Below are positions 4,140 through 24,415 of a DNA stretch of 32,956 nt, piece after piece (the first letter of the stretch is position 1; every line of letters begins with the position of its first letter). The notes beneath the pieces are model-generated. The model saw nothing but the letters and a program-made list of their open reading frames with translations. It was not told where the DNA came from and did not search any database. Source of the DNA: Nitrospira japonica (GTDB taxonomy: Bacteria; Nitrospirota; Thermodesulfovibrionia; Thermodesulfovibrionales; DYHX01); NCBI GenBank assembly GCA_020723925.1, contig DYHX01000012.1, positions 1 to 32,956 on the forward strand, in the 5' to 3' direction. A program made the translations under genes and the position numbers.

Positions 4140-5339
4140 TTACACCTTCACAAGCTTCACCCTTGTATCATAAAAGACAACGCTTGCCCCAACAGGGTCG
4201 GAAAGGGGGGTGTTCTTTACTACTGGGTCAAGTCTCATGGCTGCATTAGCATGAACCCCAGCCTTTCTCTTCGGGTCACCCTTAAAGGTCTTTCCATCAA
4301 TGGCAAAGTCCTCTGCACCTGTAGCCCAGTGACCATAGCCGAGCGGGAATGTAACAACACCAGGTCTTATACCTTCAATAACCTTTACTTTCCCGATCAT
4401 GGGTTTTTTCATCCCATTGCCAAGGTCCCATACACCATCAGGGTTTGTGGCAGAGACAACCTTTGCCTTATCACCGCTCTTAAGCCCAAGCCTTTTTGCA
4501 TCTATTGTATTGATATACAGAAAGTTCTCAGGCATAACAGCCCTAAGCCACGGAGATGTGATTGTCCTGCTCTTACACTGGGTTATATCCCTGTAAGTGC
4601 TGAGTATCATGTCATAACCATCGTCCTTTATCGGCCTTCTGAGGAAGTCCTGATAAGGCGGGATATAGGTGCCAAATCCAGGGATGTATTTTCCTGTCAT
4701 CGCGTCCTTTGTCTTAGCCATCTTTTCGGAATATATACAGACAAGTTTTTTATACCCAACATTTAGCTGTTCTCTGGTATATGCCTTTTCATAATCCATA
4801 AACCTGCCTCCACGATTAAGGACATATACCACTTTGGGCCACCACTCTGGACCAACTGCGGTCTTCCACTTTGCCTCATCAAAGACAGTCTTTGGTAAAT
4901 GTTTCCTCGCCTTTCTGAAGAGTTCCATCTCCTTAGGTGATGCATCAGGCACCATATCTCCCTTTTCTCCAGATGCTATATTAGCCACACACTTGAGGTA
5001 GAAATGCTCGGGTCTTGTAAATGGCATTACGGGACCAAAACCATCTCGTCCAAAACCTTTAAGCCCGAGCCTTTCTGCTATGGCTAATAGCATGGACTCA
5101 AGACATAGGGGCATCTCCTCACCATAGACCTTGCATGAATCTACAAGCGGCGACATAGCAGGCTGACGAACAGGCTGGACCCTGATGGTATTATTTGGAT
5201 GCGTTCCATGGAATTCCCATCTCTCAAGATATGTAGTGTCAGGGAAGATGTAGTCTGCATACATGCTTGTTGTGCCGATGGTGATATCTGAGGTGAAGAA
5301 GAGGGGAACCTTCTTTGTGTCCTTCAATATTTCAATCAT
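4140..5339 (-). CDS. TtrA-like molybdopterin oxidoreductase, C-terminal segment (frameshifted off)
   Basis: Last 399 codons of a Ttr/Psr-type bis-MGD catalytic subunit. The start (IEILKDTKKVPLFFTSDIT) continues the molybdopterin-binding fold, with MYADYIFPDTTYLERWEFHG, the typical metal-site-lid motif of this superfamily. Residues from about 270 form the C-terminal molydopterin-dinucleotide-binding domain (INTIDAKRLGLKSGDKAKVV, GVVTFPLGYGHWATG). The natural reading joins the middle segment through STP-AGHAMIEIL. The junction at about 5349-5353 is a run of five C in which one extra base breaks the frame. The ATG at 5339 is internal, so this piece is unlikely to be an independent gene. Whether the break is biological or a sequence error cannot be decided here. 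Confidence 0.8.
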   Translation of the reverse strand: MIEILKDTKKVPLFFTSDITIGTTSMYADYIFPDTTYLERWEFHGTHPNNTIRVQPVRQPAMSPLVDSCKVYGEEMPLCLESMLLAIAERLGLKGFGRDGFGPVMPFTRPEHFYLKCVANIASGEKGDMVPDASPKEMELFRKARKHLPKTVFDEAKWKTAVGPEWWPKVVYVLNRGGRFMDYEKAYTREQLNVGYKKLVCIYSEKMAKTKDAMTGKYIPGFGTYIPPYQDFLRRPIKDDGYDMILSTYRDITQCKSRTITSPWLRAVMPENFLYINTIDAKRLGLKSGDKAKVVSATNPDGVWDLGNGMKKPMIGKVKVIEGIRPGVVTFPLGYGHWATGAEDFAIDGKTFKGDPKRKAGVHANAAMRLDPVVKNTPLSDPVGASVVFYDTRVKLVKV

Positions 5340-7116
5340 TGCATGTCCTGCAGGGGGTGGAATAAACAGGAGAACCCATATACATAAAGACCGCCTTTAT
5401 TGGGTAAGGGTATGCATCCACAACAGATGGAATAATCTCCTGATATATGTCGGAGGCGTGCGGATACCACTGTCTCTTTGCAGGATACCCCTTAAATAAA
5501 GTGGTCTCATCATATTTCACACCGTGCCTTATTATGGAGACACCCCACTTTGTGAATTTTCCGGGGTCAAGCTTTTTGACATCAAAGGGCTGGCCTTCCT
5601 TGTCTCCCACATGAGGGTATGTCCCTCCCCACGCAGCTCCTCCTTTCCAGTCAAGATTGCCGATAAGGACATTAAGGGTGAGCCATGCCATACATCCATA
5701 GATACCATTAGTATGCTGGCTTACACCCCGGTGGACCTCAACTGCAGCCCTCTTTCCATAAGATGTAAACTCCCTCGCAAGCTCAACAATGTCCTCAGGC
5801 TTCACATCAGCAATCTTTGCCCATCCCGCAATGCTATTCCTTATAGAGTCCTCATACAGCATCTGAAAGACACTCTTTACAGGGATGTCTATAGGTTTCT
5901 TGTCTTTCTCTACTCCTTTTAAAGTAGTAGAGACAAAGAGGTCACCTTCAACTGCCACCTTTTTGTCATTGGGGTCAAAGGGAATGGGTTTATCACCCTG
6001 CATTACTATAAATGGGTAAAGTTCGTATTCTTCTTCCTTGTCTTTGACCTTGCCTTTCTTTTTCACTGCTGGAAGCCCCAAATCCTTTGCTGTAAGGAAA
6101 TGCCCGGGTCTTCCGTCTTCTATTTTTACAAGCCATGAGGCATTAGACCATGTTGTCTCACCATCATCATCATCAGCCTTTTTATTAGCATTTTTTAGAT
6201 ATTTCTCATCATACTGTTTATTCTCTATTATCCATCTCTGCATGCCCATCGCAATGGCGGTTTCTTCTCCTGGCTTTGCAGGGAGCCACTTCCATGCCTT
6301 TCCAGCAGTCTTTGAAAGCCTCGGGTCTATAACAGCAAACTTCAGCCTCCCCTCTGCAAGACCCTGTGCTATCTTTGCACAGCGGAGGGGTGGATAGTTA
6401 CCTTCATAAGGAGAGGATCCAATAAAGATTATAAAGTTGCTGTGTCCTGCATCTGCCTGCCAGTAAAACTTTGTGCCTTTTCCCCATTTTTCCTTTTTGT
6501 CCTTTTCCTCAAAATACCACTGGTGGCTCATGGCATAGCCTGCAAAATAAAGACTGCCCTGGCAGACCGTGGTATGTCCGTGGCCATTCACTGTCCCGTA
6601 ATTGTCACGAAATCTTGCCGCGAAATCACCCCTACCTGCCTTCTGCCTGCCCCAGAAATAGAGGAACTGGTTATTCTTTGGACCTAAATCTGGGTGATTT
6701 GGGTCTATGAGGACATGGAGTTGGTCTTTCCATGTCTCTTTGAATTTTTTTACAAGCTCTTTTTTCTTTTCATGGTCTTTTTCCTTTGTAATCTTGCCTG
6801 ACTCCTCTGCCATCTTCTTTGCAAGCTCAGGGTCTGTAAGTGCCCTTATCTTCCTTAATCCATCCACATGCTGGTTTTCGCCAATATCAGCAAAAATCTT
6901 TCCGCCCTCAACTATCTCTTTTATAGCCTGCTCAAATGGAATAGTCTTCCATTTCATTGAGCCCCTTGGTCCTGCCCTTTTTATGACCTTTGTAATCCTG
7001 TAAGGGTCATACTGTATCTGAATACCTGCCTGTCCCTTTGGGCATATATGGGCATCAGTAGTTGCCATATCAAATGGAGATGTATTATTTATGGAACATG
7101 TGGCAGCATACCCCAT
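5332..7116 (-). CDS. TtrA-like molybdopterin oxidoreductase, middle segment with Mo-ligand region
   Basis: Central part of the catalytic subunit. It begins in frame at about TSPFDMATTDAHICPKGQAG, which supplies the fourth Cys of the N-terminal [4Fe-4S] cluster. NGHGHTTVCQGSLYFAG carries the expected Mo-coordinating Cys, and FIGSSPYEGNYPPL with KFAVIDPRLSKTA forms the first MGD-binding site. GVSQHTNGIYG and NLDWKGGAAWGG follow in the second half. A Lys/Asp-rich insertion near the middle (KKADDDDGETT, KKKGKVKDKEEE) makes the whole enzyme about 1086 residues, closer to TtrA than to the shorter PsrA, PhsA or ArrA. Substrate assignment to tetrathionate is inference; another sulfur oxyanion, arsenic or selenium compound is possible. 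Confidence 0.8.
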   Translation of the reverse strand: MGYAATCSINNTSPFDMATTDAHICPKGQAGIQIQYDPYRITKVIKRAGPRGSMKWKTIPFEQAIKEIVEGGKIFADIGENQHVDGLRKIRALTDPELAKKMAEESGKITKEKDHEKKKELVKKFKETWKDQLHVLIDPNHPDLGPKNNQFLYFWGRQKAGRGDFAARFRDNYGTVNGHGHTTVCQGSLYFAGYAMSHQWYFEEKDKKEKWGKGTKFYWQADAGHSNFIIFIGSSPYEGNYPPLRCAKIAQGLAEGRLKFAVIDPRLSKTAGKAWKWLPAKPGEETAIAMGMQRWIIENKQYDEKYLKNANKKADDDDGETTWSNASWLVKIEDGRPGHFLTAKDLGLPAVKKKGKVKDKEEEYELYPFIVMQGDKPIPFDPNDKKVAVEGDLFVSTTLKGVEKDKKPIDIPVKSVFQMLYEDSIRNSIAGWAKIADVKPEDIVELAREFTSYGKRAAVEVHRGVSQHTNGIYGCMAWLTLNVLIGNLDWKGGAAWGGTYPHVGDKEGQPFDVKKLDPGKFTKWGVSIIRHGVKYDETTLFKGYPAKRQWYPHASDIYQEIIPSVVDAYPYPIKAVFMYMGSPVYSTPCRTCND

Positions 7117-7400
7117 GGGGTATAAGGACTGCCTTCAATCTTCATGGCAACTCCATCGAGGAATTTAACCTTCATCCCACAGCCCGTGTTACAGTTCTGG
7201 CATACAGTGTATATCTGGTTTTCGGGCTTGCCAAGCTCATACAAAACCTCTGGTGTCATAGGCTGTGCCAATGCCCTTGAGGCTGCTTCAAGCCATGAAG
7301 GTGCTGATGATGCCAGAACAGCTCCGCCTGTAGCCGCTGCGCCAGCTTTTAAAAAGTCGCGGCGGTTTAATCCTTTATTTTTTTCGTTCTTTTCTTTCAA
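7089..7400 (-). CDS. TtrA-like molybdopterin oxidoreductase, N-terminal segment with Tat signal
   Basis: First 103 codons of the catalytic subunit. It starts at TTG (7400) with AAGGAGGTG correctly spaced and overlapping the stop of the NrfD gene. A twin-arginine signal (NRRDFLKAGAAATGG) directs export of the folded enzyme. CQNCNTGC provides three of four ligands of the FS0 [4Fe-4S] cluster. The frame ends in TAA at 7089 just after GSPYTPWGMLPHVP, while the expected continuation (NNTSPFDMATTDAHICPKG) lies in another frame. Adding one base near 7089-7092 restores a continuous protein. Composite start-to-end length 4140-7400 is a multiple of three because the second break is opposite in sign. 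Confidence 0.8.
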   Translation of the reverse strand: MKEKNEKNKGLNRRDFLKAGAAATGGAVLASSAPSWLEAASRALAQPMTPEVLYELGKPENQIYTVCQNCNTGCGMKVKFLDGVAMKIEGSPYTPWGMLPHVP

Positions 7401-19509: not shown

Positions 19510-19920
19510 ATGGAAAAATACAAAGATATAGGACTCAAGCTTACTCCTCAGCGGCTGGCAATACTCGATTATCTTGACGGTAATAAAGAGCATCCATCGG
19601 CAGAGGACATTTACAAGGGCGTTTCAAAGAGGTTTCCAACCATGTCCTTTGCAACGGTTTACAATACCCTCGAAGCGTTAAGGCAGCGAGGAGGTATTTT
19701 AGAACTAACAATAGATCCTGACAAAAAGAGGTTCGACCCAAACACAAAACCACATCATCATTTGATATGCGTCAAATGCAAGAAGATAGTTGATATTTAT
19801 AATAATTACAAATTAGCGGTTCCAGAGGATAAGACAGAAGGATTTGAACTTGTTGGAAATCATATAGAGTTCTATGGCATATGCCCTAAATGCAAAAACA
19901 GTAAGGAGTTGAGGAGTTAA
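19510..19920 (+). CDS. perR: Fur-family peroxide/metal regulator (PerR-like)
   Basis: 136-residue repressor. The winged-helix domain (KLTPQRLAILDYL, MSFATVYNTLEALRQRG) is followed by the dimerisation/metal domain with PHHHLICVKCKKIVDI and FYGICPKCKN, whose two CxxC pairs form the structural Zn site. The His cluster and Asp (IDPDKKRFDP) supply the regulatory metal site, where PerR proteins are oxidised by peroxide. It heads a set of oxygen-defence genes and has two candidate boxes at its own promoter, which favours PerR over Fur or Zur. The final codons (KELRS) run into a degenerate GGAGTT repeat, so the C-terminus may have been altered by it. Confidence 0.85.
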   Translation: MEKYKDIGLKLTPQRLAILDYLDGNKEHPSAEDIYKGVSKRFPTMSFATVYNTLEALRQRGGILELTIDPDKKRFDPNTKPHHHLICVKCKKIVDIYNNYKLAVPEDKTEGFELVGNHIEFYGICPKCKNSKELRS

Positions 19921-19990: not shown

Positions 19991-20095
19991 ATGGCAGTCT
20001 TTAAATGCAGTAGATGCGGTACAACAAGGGAGGGAAGGTGCAAGCCGCAGAAATGTCCCAAATGCGGTGAAAAGGGAACAATGCAAAAACAGTGA
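19991..20095 (+). CDS. RCKP-type rubredoxin-like protein
   Basis: A 34-residue protein, MAVFKCSRCGTTREGRCKPQ then KCPKCGEKGTMQKQ. CSRC and CPKC form the rubredoxin-type metal knuckles and RCKP is the signature after which this small family is named. It should bind one Fe or Zn. A strong AAGGAGGTG lies eight bases before the ATG. It sits between the PerR-like regulator and the selenoperoxiredoxin, so an electron-donor role for the peroxide or superoxide reductases downstream is plausible but not shown. Confidence 0.88.
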   Translation: MAVFKCSRCGTTREGRCKPQKCPKCGEKGTMQKQ

Positions 20096-20145: not shown

Positions 20146-20187
20146 TCTTTGACTCTTGATTAAAATGAAAAAAAAGAGGTATCAATT

Positions 20188-20805
20188 ATGGGCGAAAATT
20201 GCTGTGGTTTAACAGTGGGACAGATGGTCCCAGATTTTAAGCTCGAGACCTTTGATCCATCAAAGGGTGATTTTGGTGAGGTCAGCCTTGAAACTCTAAA
20301 GGCAAATAAGAAATGGACAATACTTTTCTTTTACCCTGCTGATTTTACATTTGTCTGAGCTACTGAGTTTGCTGCTCTGGCAGAGCAGTACGACAGGTTT
20401 AAAAAGATGGGTGCAGAGGTTATAACCGTCAGCACAGACACAAAGTTTGTCCATCTTGCATGGCAGAGGGAAGAGAAGATGCTTGAGAATGTTAAATATC
20501 CAATGGGTTCAGACCCCACAGGAAAGGTCTCAAGGATGTTCGGTGTGTATGATGAGGAAACAGGGCTCGCATTGAGAGGGACTTTTATCATCAGCCCTGA
20601 GGGTAAGCTCCTTAATTCCGAGGTCAACTACTATAACATGGGCAGAAATGTCGATGAACTGATGAGGAAGTTTAAGGCAAACCTCCACCTTGCAAAGCAT
20701 ACGGATGAAGGCTGTCCGTCGAAATGGAAGGAAGAAGGAGATAAGACCCTTAAGCCCTCAGCAAAAATGGTCGGTAAGGTTTATGAGGCATACGAGGGCA
20801 AATAA
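20188..20805 (+). CDS. prxU: Selenocysteine-containing peroxiredoxin (AhpC/2-Cys type)
   Basis: Reading through the in-frame TGA at 20356-20358 as selenocysteine gives one 205-residue AhpC-like peroxiredoxin: [28 protein letters not shown]-Sec57[12 protein letters not shown], [22 protein letters not shown] and the resolving Cys176 in EGCPSKW. Sec57 is exactly the peroxidatic position (normally FTFVCPTE). The usual Pro after it is Ala. A perfect hairpin 13 bases past the TGA (20372-20388) fits a bacterial SECIS. It reduces peroxides, with a thiol or rubredoxin-type donor. ATG at 20188 follows AGAGGT. A conventional caller would report only the part from 20407. It belongs to the PerR-led island. 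Confidence 0.9.
20356..20390 (+). promoter_or_regulatory. UGA Sec codon with SECIS-like hairpin
   Basis: The TGA is at 20356-20358. CTGCTC (20372-20377) pairs perfectly with GAGCAG (20383-20388) around the loop TGGCA, and two further pairs extend it on the outside. Distance from the codon to the loop is about 20 bases, and the loop holds G and U, as SelB-recognised bacterial SECIS elements do. Confidence 0.75.
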
Positions 20806-20860: not shown

Positions 20861-21235
20861 ATGACAAAGAGATTACAGATCTACAAATGCGAAATATGCG
20901 GCAACATTGTGGAGATGATACACGAAGGCATAGGGCAATTGGTGTGCTGCGGCCAGCCAATGAAGTTCTATGAAGAGAATACTGTGGACGCATCTCAGGA
21001 AAAACATGTTCCTGTGGTGGAAAAAATAGAAGGCGGCTTTAAGATAAAGGTTGGGAGCGTTCCCCATCCCATGGAAGAAAAACACTACATTGAGTGGATA
21101 GAGGTTATAGCAGATGGGAAGGCATATCGCCAATTCTTAAAGCCGGGTGATGTGCCAGAGGCTGTTTTCATGATTGATGCATCGACAATTACTGCAAGGG
21201 AGTATTGTAATTTACACGGAGTTTGGAAGGGCTAA
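20861..21235 (+). CDS. dfx: Desulfoferrodoxin (superoxide reductase)
   Basis: Reduces superoxide to hydrogen peroxide without making oxygen. The 124-residue protein has the N-terminal desulforedoxin centre ([12 protein letters not shown] and VCCGQPM, four Cys for Fe), then the SOR centre with His ligands in [20 protein letters not shown] and the Cys-His pair in [10 protein letters not shown]. The ATG at 20861 follows AAAGGAGGTG. It is flanked by the selenoperoxiredoxin, which could remove the peroxide formed, and by a hemerythrin. A single-gene two-iron arrangement (2Fe-SOR) is normal for anaerobes. Confidence 0.95.
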
Positions 21236-21260: not shown

Positions 21261-21668
21261 ATGGCATTATTTGTATGGAGTGACGGATACAGTGTCAACA
21301 TTATGGAGATTGACAATCAGCATAAAAGGCTTATTGAGCTTATCAATGAGCTACACAGTGCAATGGCTGCTGGCAAAGGAAAAGAAGTATTAGGCAAAAC
21401 GTTACAGGGCTTAATTGATTATACAAAAACCCATTTTGCATATGAAGAAAATCTGATGAAAACGCACGGTTATTCCGAATGTTCGCAGCACAAAACAGCA
21501 CACGAAAAGCTCGTCAGTCAGGTACTGGATTTTCAGAAAAAATTTCAGGCCGGTGAGATGTGGGTCACCATTGATATTATGAACTTTTTAAAGGACTGGC
21601 TTTCAAAGCACATCATGGGAACCGATAAGAAATACAGCCCGTTTTTTAATAGCAAGGGAATTGCTTAA
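21261..21668 (+). CDS. Bacteriohemerythrin
   Basis: 135-residue four-helix di-iron oxygen-binding protein. The ligand pattern is intact: IDNQHKRLIELINELH, HFAYEENLM, HKTAH and HIMGTDKKY. It follows GGGAGGTG 6 bases before the ATG. Bacteriohemerythrins bind or deliver oxygen to reductases; here the flavodiiron protein downstream is a possible consumer. The gene lies in the run of same-strand oxygen-defence genes, but a hairpin at 21684-21713 just after it may reduce read-through. Confidence 0.93.
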   Translation: MALFVWSDGYSVNIMEIDNQHKRLIELINELHSAMAAGKGKEVLGKTLQGLIDYTKTHFAYEENLMKTHGYSECSQHKTAHEKLVSQVLDFQKKFQAGEMWVTIDIMNFLKDWLSKHIMGTDKKYSPFFNSKGIA

Positions 21669-21771: not shown

Positions 21772-21897
21772 ATGCCAGCAATGGTGATAAAGGGGCTTTA
21801 CTGCCCTGACTGCTCCTCAAATACAAATGCAAATCCTGACAAAGTGGTTGTTGACAATGGGTGGATTATTGAATACGATATGGATATTGCAAAATGA
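21772..21897 (+). CDS. Small Cys-containing ORF (possible metal-knuckle peptide)
   Basis: A 41-codon ORF, MPAMVIKGLYCPDCSS then NTNANPDKVVVDNGWIIEYD, with one CxxC. Its TGA overlaps the ATG of the next ORF (ATGA at 21894-21897), which suggests coupling. A better ribosome site (AAGGAG) precedes another ATG at 21743, whose frame (MTEATTREYVCQQW) ends in TGA at 21785. Joining the two frames by a one-base shift would give a single protein with two Cys-containing stretches, so a frameshift or sequence error is possible. Family unknown. Confidence 0.4.
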   Translation: MPAMVIKGLYCPDCSSNTNANPDKVVVDNGWIIEYDMDIAK

Positions 21898-22085
21898 AGG
21901 ATGGAGAAAGGCAAAAAACAGAGACAAATAATAAGAGCCGTTGCTCGATTGTAAATATCCCATTTCCCACAGAGATAACATGCCCCATTTGTGGATATGA
22001 GGTTGAACTCTGGACAGATGAAGATGAAACAAGATGCCGCATTTGTGGTTATAAAATCTTTCATAACGAAGGGACAATTCATTAA
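21894..22085 (+). CDS. Small zinc-ribbon protein
   Basis: 63 residues with two CxxC pairs, EITCPICGYEVELW and TRCRICGYKIFHNEG, the spacing of a zinc ribbon or rubredoxin-like knuckle, ending in His. The charged N-terminus (KDGERQKTETNNKSR) is probably unstructured. It overlaps the preceding small ORF by four bases and ends 12 bases before the ferritin-like gene, which has its own AGGAGG. The context of oxygen-defence and iron proteins suggests metal binding or electron transfer. I do not recognise a named family. Confidence 0.65.
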   Translation: MKDGERQKTETNNKSRCSIVNIPFPTEITCPICGYEVELWTDEDETRCRICGYKIFHNEGTIH

Positions 22086-22097
22086 CAGGAGGCTTTT

Positions 22098-22514
22098 ATG
22101 GTAAGCAAGGAATTACTCAAAAAGCTGAATGAGGCGATAGCAAGGGAGATTCAGGTGAGCATTCAGTATATGTGGCAGCATGTGATGATTAAGGGAATCA
22201 ATGCACAGGCCATTGGACCTATTTTCAGACAGATAGCAATTATTGAAATGGGGCATGCTGAACTCATTGCAGAGAGGCTTGATTATCTCGGTGGTGAACC
22301 GACCACGCAACCCACACCCATCGAAATAGGCAAAAATGCAAAGGAGATGTTGAAAATAAATAAAAAGGCAGAAGAGGATGCAATTGCAATGTATAAGGAT
22401 ATTATAAAGCTTGCAGAAAAAGAAGCTGATTATACAACTAAAAAACTATTTGAACAAATTCTTGCCGACGAAGAGAATCACCATAATACATTCAGCACGC
22501 TTTTAGAGGATTAG
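22098..22514 (+). CDS. Ferritin-like/bacterioferritin-type di-iron protein
   Basis: 138-residue four-helix protein with carboxylate/His ligands spaced as in ferritin-like enzymes: NEAIAREIQVSIQYMWQH on helix 1, IIEMGHAELIAERLDYLGGEP on helix 2, AMYKDIIKLAEKEADY on helix 3 and ILADEENHHNTF on helix 4. It resembles the Bfr/DUF-type proteins encoded beside desulfoferrodoxin and flavodiiron genes in anaerobes. It is slightly short for a bacterioferritin (about 155), and haem binding is uncertain. Role: iron storage, or removal of Fe(II) and peroxide together. AGGAGG lies ahead of the ATG. Confidence 0.82.
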   Translation: MVSKELLKKLNEAIAREIQVSIQYMWQHVMIKGINAQAIGPIFRQIAIIEMGHAELIAERLDYLGGEPTTQPTPIEIGKNAKEMLKINKKAEEDAIAMYKDIIKLAEKEADYTTKKLFEQILADEENHHNTFSTLLED

Positions 22515-22530: not shown

Positions 22531-23745
22531 ATGAAGGCTATTGAGCTTAAAAACGGGATATACTGGGTAGGTGCAATTGACTGGGCTGTAAGGGACTTTC
22601 ACGGCTATGGAACCCCTCGTGGCACAACTTATAACAACTACCTGATAATGGATGGCGAAATAACACTTTTGGATACTGTTAAATACGACTTCGCAGACAT
22701 CACCATCAAAAACATAAAGTCTGTTGTCGACCCTTCTAAAATAAAGAATGTAGTCATAAACCATATTGAGAACGACCATGTGACAAGCATTGACAAGATA
22801 ATGGATTTGACGCCAGATGCCACCATTTATATAACAGAAAAAGGCAAAAAGGGCCTTGAGAGGTTTTTTGACATATCAAAATGGGATATAAAAATTGTAA
22901 AAACAGGAGATACCTTAAATATAGGCAAGAGGACATTACTCTTCATAGAAACGCCAATGCTTCACTGGCCTGATTCCATGATGACATACATAAAGGAAGA
23001 TAAGATACTCATCAGTCAGGATGCATTCGGCCAGCATATTGCATCAGCAGTAAGATTTGACGACGAATTTATAACCTGCGAATCAATGTCAGAACTTGAA
23101 GATGGAGTTGTGGATTACTATGCAAATATCCTTATGCCATTCGGTCAATTAATAAAGGCAAAGATAGCAGACATACAGAAACTGGGATTGGAGATCGAGA
23201 TGATCGCCCCTGACCACGGGATAATCTGGAGGGCAAACCCTCAAAAGGTTTTACAGATGTACATGGACATGGCAAATGGCAAATCAAACCTGAGTGTCTC
23301 CATCATCTACGATACCATGTGGCATAGCACAGAGCAGATGGCACTCCCGATAATGCAAGGTATAAAAGATGAGGGGGTAGAGTGCAAGGTTATCAAACTA
23401 AGAGCCACACCAATGAGTATTGCCATAAAAGAGTTCTGGAAATCAAGAGGCAGCCTTATCGGAACACCCACTCTGAATAACATAATGTATCCGACAATAG
23501 CTGAGTTTATCACACATCTGAGGGGACTTAGACCTAAAAACAGGATTGTCGGAGCCTTTGGAAGCTATGGATGGGGTGGTGGTGCAGTAAAAGAGGCATA
23601 TGAAGAATTCAAAAGCATGGGGCTTGAGATTTTTGAGCCAGGATTACAGATACTTTATAGACCCGCATTAGAAGATGAAACAAAGTGTTATGAGTTCGGA
23701 AAAGAGTTTGCAAAGAAGGTAAAAGAGTACCATCAGAAATTCTAA
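22531..23745 (+). CDS. FprA-type flavodiiron protein (oxygen/NO reductase)
   Basis: 404 residues. The N-terminal metallo-beta-lactamase-like domain binds the di-iron site: His78, Glu80, Asp82 and His83 in NHIENDH, His in MLHWPDSMM, Asp in SQDAFGQH and His in APDHGIIWR. The flavodoxin domain starts near residue 255 (SVSIIYDTMWHSTEQMA) and ends with GAFGSYGWGGGAV. FprA proteins reduce oxygen to water, or NO to N2O, with electrons from rubredoxin or F420. It sits 16 bases after the ferritin-like gene and one base before the FMN reductase gene, forming the core of the oxygen-reduction part of the island. Confidence 0.95.
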   Translation: MKAIELKNGIYWVGAIDWAVRDFHGYGTPRGTTYNNYLIMDGEITLLDTVKYDFADITIKNIKSVVDPSKIKNVVINHIENDHVTSIDKIMDLTPDATIYITEKGKKGLERFFDISKWDIKIVKTGDTLNIGKRTLLFIETPMLHWPDSMMTYIKEDKILISQDAFGQHIASAVRFDDEFITCESMSELEDGVVDYYANILMPFGQLIKAKIADIQKLGLEIEMIAPDHGIIWRANPQKVLQMYMDMANGKSNLSVSIIYDTMWHSTEQMALPIMQGIKDEGVECKVIKLRATPMSIAIKEFWKSRGSLIGTPTLNNIMYPTIAEFITHLRGLRPKNRIVGAFGSYGWGGGAVKEAYEEFKSMGLEIFEPGLQILYRPALEDETKCYEFGKEFAKKVKEYHQKF

Positions 23746-23746
23746 G

Positions 23747-24415
23747 ATGAAAGTAGTGGCATTTCAGGGCAGCCCAAGAATAGAAGGGAATACAGACATA
23801 CTGCTGAAAGAAACATTAAAGGCGATATATGAAGCAGGACATGATGTTCAGTTATTCAAGCTCAACCTCATGAATATAAAACCATGTCAGGACTGCGGCG
23901 GATGCGATAAAACAGGAATATGCATAATTAAAGATGATATGGAGGAAATATATATGGCTATACGGGAGGCTGACAGGATAATCCTCGCCTCCCCTATTTT
24001 TTTCTTTGGTCTCAGCGCGCAGGCAAAGGTAATGATTGACAGGTGCCAGTCCTTCTGGTGTGAGAAATATCTTCTGAAGAGGCCTATTCTTGGTGATCAA
24101 TATGGGAGGAAGGGGTTACTGCTCCTCGTCGGAGGAATGAAGAAAGAGATCGGTTTTCGATGTGCTGAGGCATCTGCAAAGGCATTCTTCAGAACTATAA
24201 GTGTTCCTGAACACAAGACCCTTTATTACATGGGCATCGATGCAAAGGGTGCAATCCTTGAACATCCAACAGCTTTTAAAGAGGCTTATGAAGGAGGAAA
24301 AAGACTTGTTTCAAAGACAGGGGTGAGTCACGGTCTACAGCGTCCGCTTAATGATGACAATCGCTGTTGTCATCATCACGATAGTAAAAATCAAAAGAAA
24401 AGGTTTTTTAATTAG
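23747..24415 (+). CDS. NADPH-dependent FMN reductase/flavodoxin-like (IsfA-type) protein
   Basis: 222 residues. The start MKVVAFQGSPRIEGNTDILL is the flavin-phosphate loop of the iron-sulfur flavoprotein/FMN-reductase family. CQDCGGCDKTGICIIKDDM gives the compact Cys motif that ligates a [4Fe-4S] cluster in iron-sulfur flavoproteins, and ASPIFFFGLSAQAKVMIDR follows. It starts one base after the flavodiiron stop, so the pair is probably co-translated and this protein may feed electrons to it. The last about 28 residues (CCHHHDSKNQKKRFFN and before) are unlike the family and may come from a frameshifted or repeat-derived end. Confidence 0.82.
   Translation: MKVVAFQGSPRIEGNTDILLKETLKAIYEAGHDVQLFKLNLMNIKPCQDCGGCDKTGICIIKDDMEEIYMAIREADRIILASPIFFFGLSAQAKVMIDRCQSFWCEKYLLKRPILGDQYGRKGLLLLVGGMKKEIGFRCAEASAKAFFRTISVPEHKTLYYMGIDAKGAILEHPTAFKEAYEGGKRLVSKTGVSHGLQRPLNDDNRCCHHHDSKNQKKRFFN

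Follow-up and report, generated by a model that had tools for sequence, protein, structure and literature searches.

The gene at 20188-20805 almost certainly encodes a selenocysteine (Sec)-containing typical 2-Cys (AhpC/Prx1-type) peroxiredoxin, in which an in-frame UGA codon is predicted to specify Sec at the peroxidatic position. It is a new member of a known family of Sec peroxiredoxins, and the interesting part lies in the history of the clade to which it belongs. The window, that is, the whole 32,956-nt stretch of DNA that was analyzed, derives from a 1.87-Mb draft genome of 106 contigs, assigned to Nitrospirota and related to Thermodesulfovibrionia. The features of the gene, in window coordinates, are as follows.

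20175..20179, + strand, Shine-Dalgarno-like AGAGG, 8 nt 5' of the ATG at 20188 (sequence)
20188..20805, + strand, predicted Sec-containing AhpC-type peroxiredoxin, 205 aa, with UGA as Sec57 (translation; Pfam AhpC-TSA, 134 bits)
20200..20205, + strand, Cys5-Cys6, a vicinal pair close to the N-terminus (frequent in the clade)
20335..20361, + strand, active-site motif P50-x3-T54-x2-U57-A58, PADFTFVUA (aligned with AhpC PxxxTxxCP)
20356..20358, + strand, in-frame UGA, predicted Sec57 at the peroxidatic position (TGA in 77 clade sequences, TGC/TGT in 40)
20371..20389, + strand, putative bacterial-type SECIS hairpin with arms 20371-20378 and 20382-20389 and loop GGC at 20379-20381 (folding, covariation)
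20407..20805, + strand, ORF that a standard caller would report, 132 aa (table-11 ORF list)
20713..20715, + strand, Cys176, putative AhpC-type C-terminal resolving Cys (aligned with the VCP of AhpC)

Reading frame and active site

Translation of 20188-20805 encounters only one TGA, at codon 57 of 205, and this codon aligns with the peroxidatic Cys of the best AhpC structures in the PDB (FYPADFSFVCPTE in 1we0, and also in 1yf1), within a peroxiredoxin alignment that spans nearly the full length. The 205-aa read-through frame is therefore in agreement with the initial annotation, which had placed an in-frame TGA exactly at the AhpC peroxidatic Cys and had warned that a gene caller would miss the N-terminal part; indeed, because the table-11 frame starts at 20407, the first 73 residues, including the active site, would be lost. 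The protein shares with AhpC (TIGR03137; 1we0, 1yf1) the domain family, the PxxxTxxC pocket (P50, T54 and U57, as in the AhpC/Prx1 typical 2-Cys type) and the C-terminal resolving Cys, and differs from it by the predicted Sec in place of Cys, by the following Ala in place of Pro and by a short N-terminal extension containing CC. Its score against the AhpC equivalog model TIGR03137 is 206.5 bits, below the cut-off of 272, and we therefore consider the protein AhpC-type and not AhpC proper. Against the thiol peroxidase Bcp model (Bcp/PrxQ; NF006960), the protein likewise stays below the cut-off, with 38 bits against 140.

The Cys pair of the N-terminal extension lies in the context M-x-x-x-CC-x-L-x-V-G, beyond the region that aligns with AhpC of known structure. 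Among the relatives whose N-terminus is aligned, CC occurs within the first 12 aa in 48 of 72 Sec and 21 of 28 Cys forms.

The Ala directly after Sec had been described as unusual. So it is when compared with AhpC in general, but in the clade all 77 Sec copies have Ala; it is thus a rule of the clade and not an oddity of the query protein. The same Ala is also kept in the nested Cys members (CATE).

Decoding of the UGA codon

TGA is present at the same codon in 77 distinct sequences (61-100% identity) from many independent assemblies, and 40 relatives have TGT or TGC there. This distribution bears on the objection that the TGA results from faulty sequencing or assembly, or that it marks a Cys peroxiredoxin gene which has only recently become a pseudogene. 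A single codon that is one base from TGT or TGC, in a draft of 106 contigs, could arise in this way, but the TGA recurs across independent assemblies, the remaining frame is intact and conserved, and the hairpin accompanies only the TGA copies; we consider such an accident exceedingly improbable.

The hairpin itself had been proposed to lie 3' of the UGA, and the RNA does fold at 20371-20389, into a stem of eight pairs that begins 12 nt past the UGA, with a GGC loop that begins 21 nt past it. Against dinucleotide shuffles the single sequence is not significant on its own (z about -1.2). When the peptide was recoded with synonymous codons, the native stem length was reached in 120 of 20000 recodings (0.6%) and the native folding energy in 7 of 2000 (0.35%). 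It is the comparative evidence across Sec and Cys relatives that carries the hairpin far beyond chance. The seven inner stem pairs are all intact in 67 of the 77 Sec genes, with one stem mismatch in 10 of the 77, and in none of the 40 Cys (TGT/TGC) relatives; the apical TGGCA is found in 76/77 Sec genes versus 5/40 Cys relatives, and the apical Leu is encoded by CTG in all 77 Sec genes and by mixed codons in Cys genes. In the stem alignment, 96.9% of cells are paired in the Sec set and 52% in the Cys set, which served as the control. Double-changed cells number 26, versus 6.9 in shuffles, and none of 500 shuffles reached that count; the signal is abolished by sliding the stem partners, and compensatory changes affect four pairs (for example, CCGCTCT/AGAGCGG, CTGATCT/AGATCAG and CTGACCT/AGGTCAG). 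Because the pairing and the compensatory changes are found in TGA copies and not in Cys copies, the stem looks selected as RNA, and apparently only where the codon is UGA. An Rfam scan of the hairpin region matched no family.

The genome also encodes the machinery that such decoding would use. Profile searches detected, each above its cut-off, SelA (548 bits), SelB (381 bits) and SelD (340 bits), and a tRNA-Sec was found at 71.5 bits, its anticodon being TCA. Thus selA, selB, selC and selD are all present, and the argument against Sec that the initial annotation had named, a genome lacking selA, selB and selC together with a base change at the codon, fails. In addition, three further genes of the same genome contain an in-frame TGA at a textbook Sec position, namely SelD (KAAGUAGK; locus L021, minus strand, contig C96) and two formate dehydrogenase alpha subunits, FdhA (ARIUHSATVA and ARYUHSATVA; loci L188 and L189 on contigs C39 and C78). 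In the first FdhA, the UGA is followed by CTCTGGCAGAG, the same 11 nt as in the apical hairpin of the peroxiredoxin, and we propose this shared element as a candidate local SelB-binding motif. The UGA of SelD is followed by a hairpin, GGTCC-GTC-GGACC. A search of the FlpD family for more Sec proteins gave three matches, none of which is interrupted by TGA.

UGA reassignment occurs in other bacteria, and one might suppose the codon to be read as Trp, or as Cys by read-through or reassignment, and not as Sec. Against this, the long ORFs of the window are uninterrupted under table 11 and hardly lengthen when TGA is read through, the clean in-frame TGAs that were found coincide with known Sec sites, and the Sec machinery and the SECIS co-occur; such a reading appears very improbable, although Cys may be inserted in place of Sec when selenium is scarce.

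Sec decoding also agrees with the distribution of SelA among 396 genomes of the phylum, classed by whether their closest peroxiredoxin is of the TGA or the Cys form: SelA was detected in 77 of 79 genomes with the TGA form versus 21 of 35 with the Cys form (Fisher p = 6e-7, a value that overstates independence because the genomes are related). The two SelA-less TGA genomes, G217 and G038 (65% complete), each contain a tRNA-Sec of about 70 bits, and the missing SelA is therefore probably an assembly gap. Together, the sel genes, the 77 TGA relatives, a covarying SECIS without counterpart in the Cys relatives and the co-occurrence with SelA sustain the earlier proposal that UGA is decoded as Sec, which at the protein level stands as a prediction.

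Relation to PrxU and history of the clade

According to Table 1 of PMC13188914, TxxU Sec peroxiredoxins are an experimentally verified and widely predicted selenoprotein family, and the query carries the TxxU motif by which that family is defined (PMC13188914, Table 1; PMC1794560; PMC1088965). The initial annotation had referred to PrxU-type proteins; PrxU is the Sec peroxiredoxin of the Eubacterium acidaminophilum type (NF040737; Soehling et al. 2001, cited in PMC8533274). Our comparison with PrxU was made with ten members from the phylum and the NF040737 model. The proposed likeness stands insofar as both proteins are AhpC-like, with the TxxU motif, Sec at the peroxidatic position and a similar function, but the assignment to PrxU itself does not: the query scores 188.9 bits against the NF040737 cut-off of 270, whereas true PrxU genes with an active-site TGA, which do occur elsewhere in the phylum (L164-L168 and L182-L186), score 351-403 bits; the query belongs to a clade of its own; and it has retained the resolving Cys. 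The latter residue is present in 71 of 74 Sec relatives and in all 39 Cys relatives, and all ten PrxU have Thr or Met at the position of Cys176. Since its clade possesses the resolving Cys, the query would be the Sec version of a typical 2-Cys enzyme, and the compared PrxU thus appear to be Sec versions without it. Three Sec-form relatives (L083, L147 and L156) have Ile or Val in place of the resolving Cys, a loss that resembles PrxU and that occurs in 0 of 39 Cys forms.

The phylogeny gives the same separation. In a maximum-likelihood tree of 106 sequences, built with the active-site pair masked and rooted with AhpC outgroups, a single clade (100/99), the query included, unites the Sec with the Cys-Ala proteins and is nested, through several supported branches, in a series of Cys-Pro lineages, and PrxU forms a separate clade (100/100). 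A common Sec origin, with the query as a member of the PrxU family, would explain the identical position of Sec, an identity of about 45% and the Ala that follows Sec in 6 of the 10 PrxU of the phylum; nevertheless, the low NF040737 score, the lack of the resolving Cys in the phylum PrxU, the nesting among Cys-Pro proteins and the different sequence after the UGA all speak against it, and we give this explanation little credence. Judging from its sequence, the query lies outside PrxU in the strict sense.

On this tree, the Sec label requires six changes, at least five of them forced by well-supported branches, and the Sec proteins form one group in no bootstrap tree. Such parsimony counts give the number of changes and not their direction. 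Any direction depends on parsimony and on the AhpC-outgroup rooting, and the PrxU node is one at which long branches come together. The count would also accommodate a history in which a Cys enzyme first exchanged Pro for Ala (CPTE to CATE) and the resulting CATE clade then acquired Sec on several occasions, and CATE enzymes do exist. However, all Sec copies share a hairpin at the same offset with an almost invariant TGGCA apex, the Cys copies stand alone in the tree or make up terminal families, and a SECIS is more likely to be lost than to arise repeatedly in the same form; this order of events therefore seems unlikely to us. The SECIS shared across the Sec copies favors a single gain, and we infer, with less certainty than for our other conclusions, that a Cys-Pro ancestor of AhpC type gave rise to the clade through one acquisition of Sec, separate from that of PrxU, with several later reversions to Cys. 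The nested Cys-Ala members are probably such Sec-to-Cys reversions, which retained the Ala. We thus lean toward a model of a Nitrospirota-wide 2-Cys clade in which that single Sec gain was accompanied by the change from Pro to Ala and followed by at least four or five reversions, in which CATE would be the fossil of a lost selenoenzyme, and in which a minority of Sec members, and no Cys member, lost the resolving Cys and so reached a PrxU-like state.

Such a history would add to the events recorded for peroxiredoxins in an earlier survey, where Table 1 of PMC1794560 lists five Cys-to-Sec events and no Sec-to-Cys event, whereas the present clade implies several reversions. Our literature search, with most subscription papers outside its scope, found no paper on Sec peroxiredoxins of Nitrospirota and no description of a separate, Cys-keeping Sec clade with reversions. 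The clade may serve as a natural selenium experiment, since it offers both residues on one scaffold, a probable direction of change and, in the Ala, a trace of that change beside the site; a comparison of sister Sec and Cys enzymes would make it testable why Sec is used in some peroxiredoxins and what a return to Cys costs.

Gene neighborhood and proposed function

The peroxiredoxin gene lies among genes whose predicted products suggest an oxidative-stress cluster.

19510..19920, + strand, PerR-like Fur-family repressor, likely the cluster regulator (Pfam FUR, 109 bits; best NCBIfam match PerR, below cut-off)
19991..20095, + strand, RCKP-type rubredoxin-like protein, 34 aa (NF045720, 66.5 bits, above cut-off)
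20861..21235, + strand, desulfoferrodoxin (superoxide reductase) (TIGR00320, 214.6 bits)
21261..21668, + strand, bacteriohemerythrin (NF033749, 172 bits)
22098..22514, + strand, ferritin-like/bacterioferritin-like protein (Pfam Ferritin, 108.5 bits)
22531..23745, + strand, flavodiiron protein, O2/NO reductase type (Pfam ODP and Flavodoxin_1; NF008887, 407 bits, below cut-off)
23747..24415, + strand, NADPH-dependent FMN reductase family flavoprotein (Pfam FMN_red)

In a set of 54 peroxiredoxin loci, many of them truncated, PerR lies close to the gene in 22, the flavodiiron protein in 18 and desulfoferrodoxin in 17. The window also encodes, at 21894-22085, a 63-aa zinc-ribbon-like protein (CPICG...CRICG), which is matched close to the gene in 14 of the 54 loci.

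On this basis, we propose that SelB, with Sec-tRNA(UCA), decodes UGA codon 57 as Sec under the direction of the downstream hairpin, and that Sec57, seated in the PxxxTxxU pocket, would reduce H2O2 or an alkyl hydroperoxide and thereby be converted to a selenenic acid. Cys176' of the partner subunit would then resolve this selenenic acid to a selenenylsulfide, which a thioredoxin-like or other donor would reduce. The enzyme would operate in a PerR-controlled oxidative-stress cluster of an anaerobe, together with rubredoxin, superoxide reductase, hemerythrin, ferritin and a flavodiiron protein. Thus, by homology for the catalysis, the bond, the reductant and the control alike, the likely function is that of a PerR-regulated H2O2 peroxidase acting through a Sec57-Cys176' selenenylsulfide. 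Because standard gene calling drops the active site across the clade, the peroxide defense of these mostly uncultured anaerobes is under-described.

Elsewhere in the window, on the minus strand at 4140-7400, the catalytic subunit of a molybdopterin oxidoreductase is broken up into three ORFs of differing frame, which encode a TAT signal with Fe4S4, the molybdopterin domain and the dinucleotide-binding domain, respectively; the interruptions near 7100 and 5335 are frameshifts or sequence errors.
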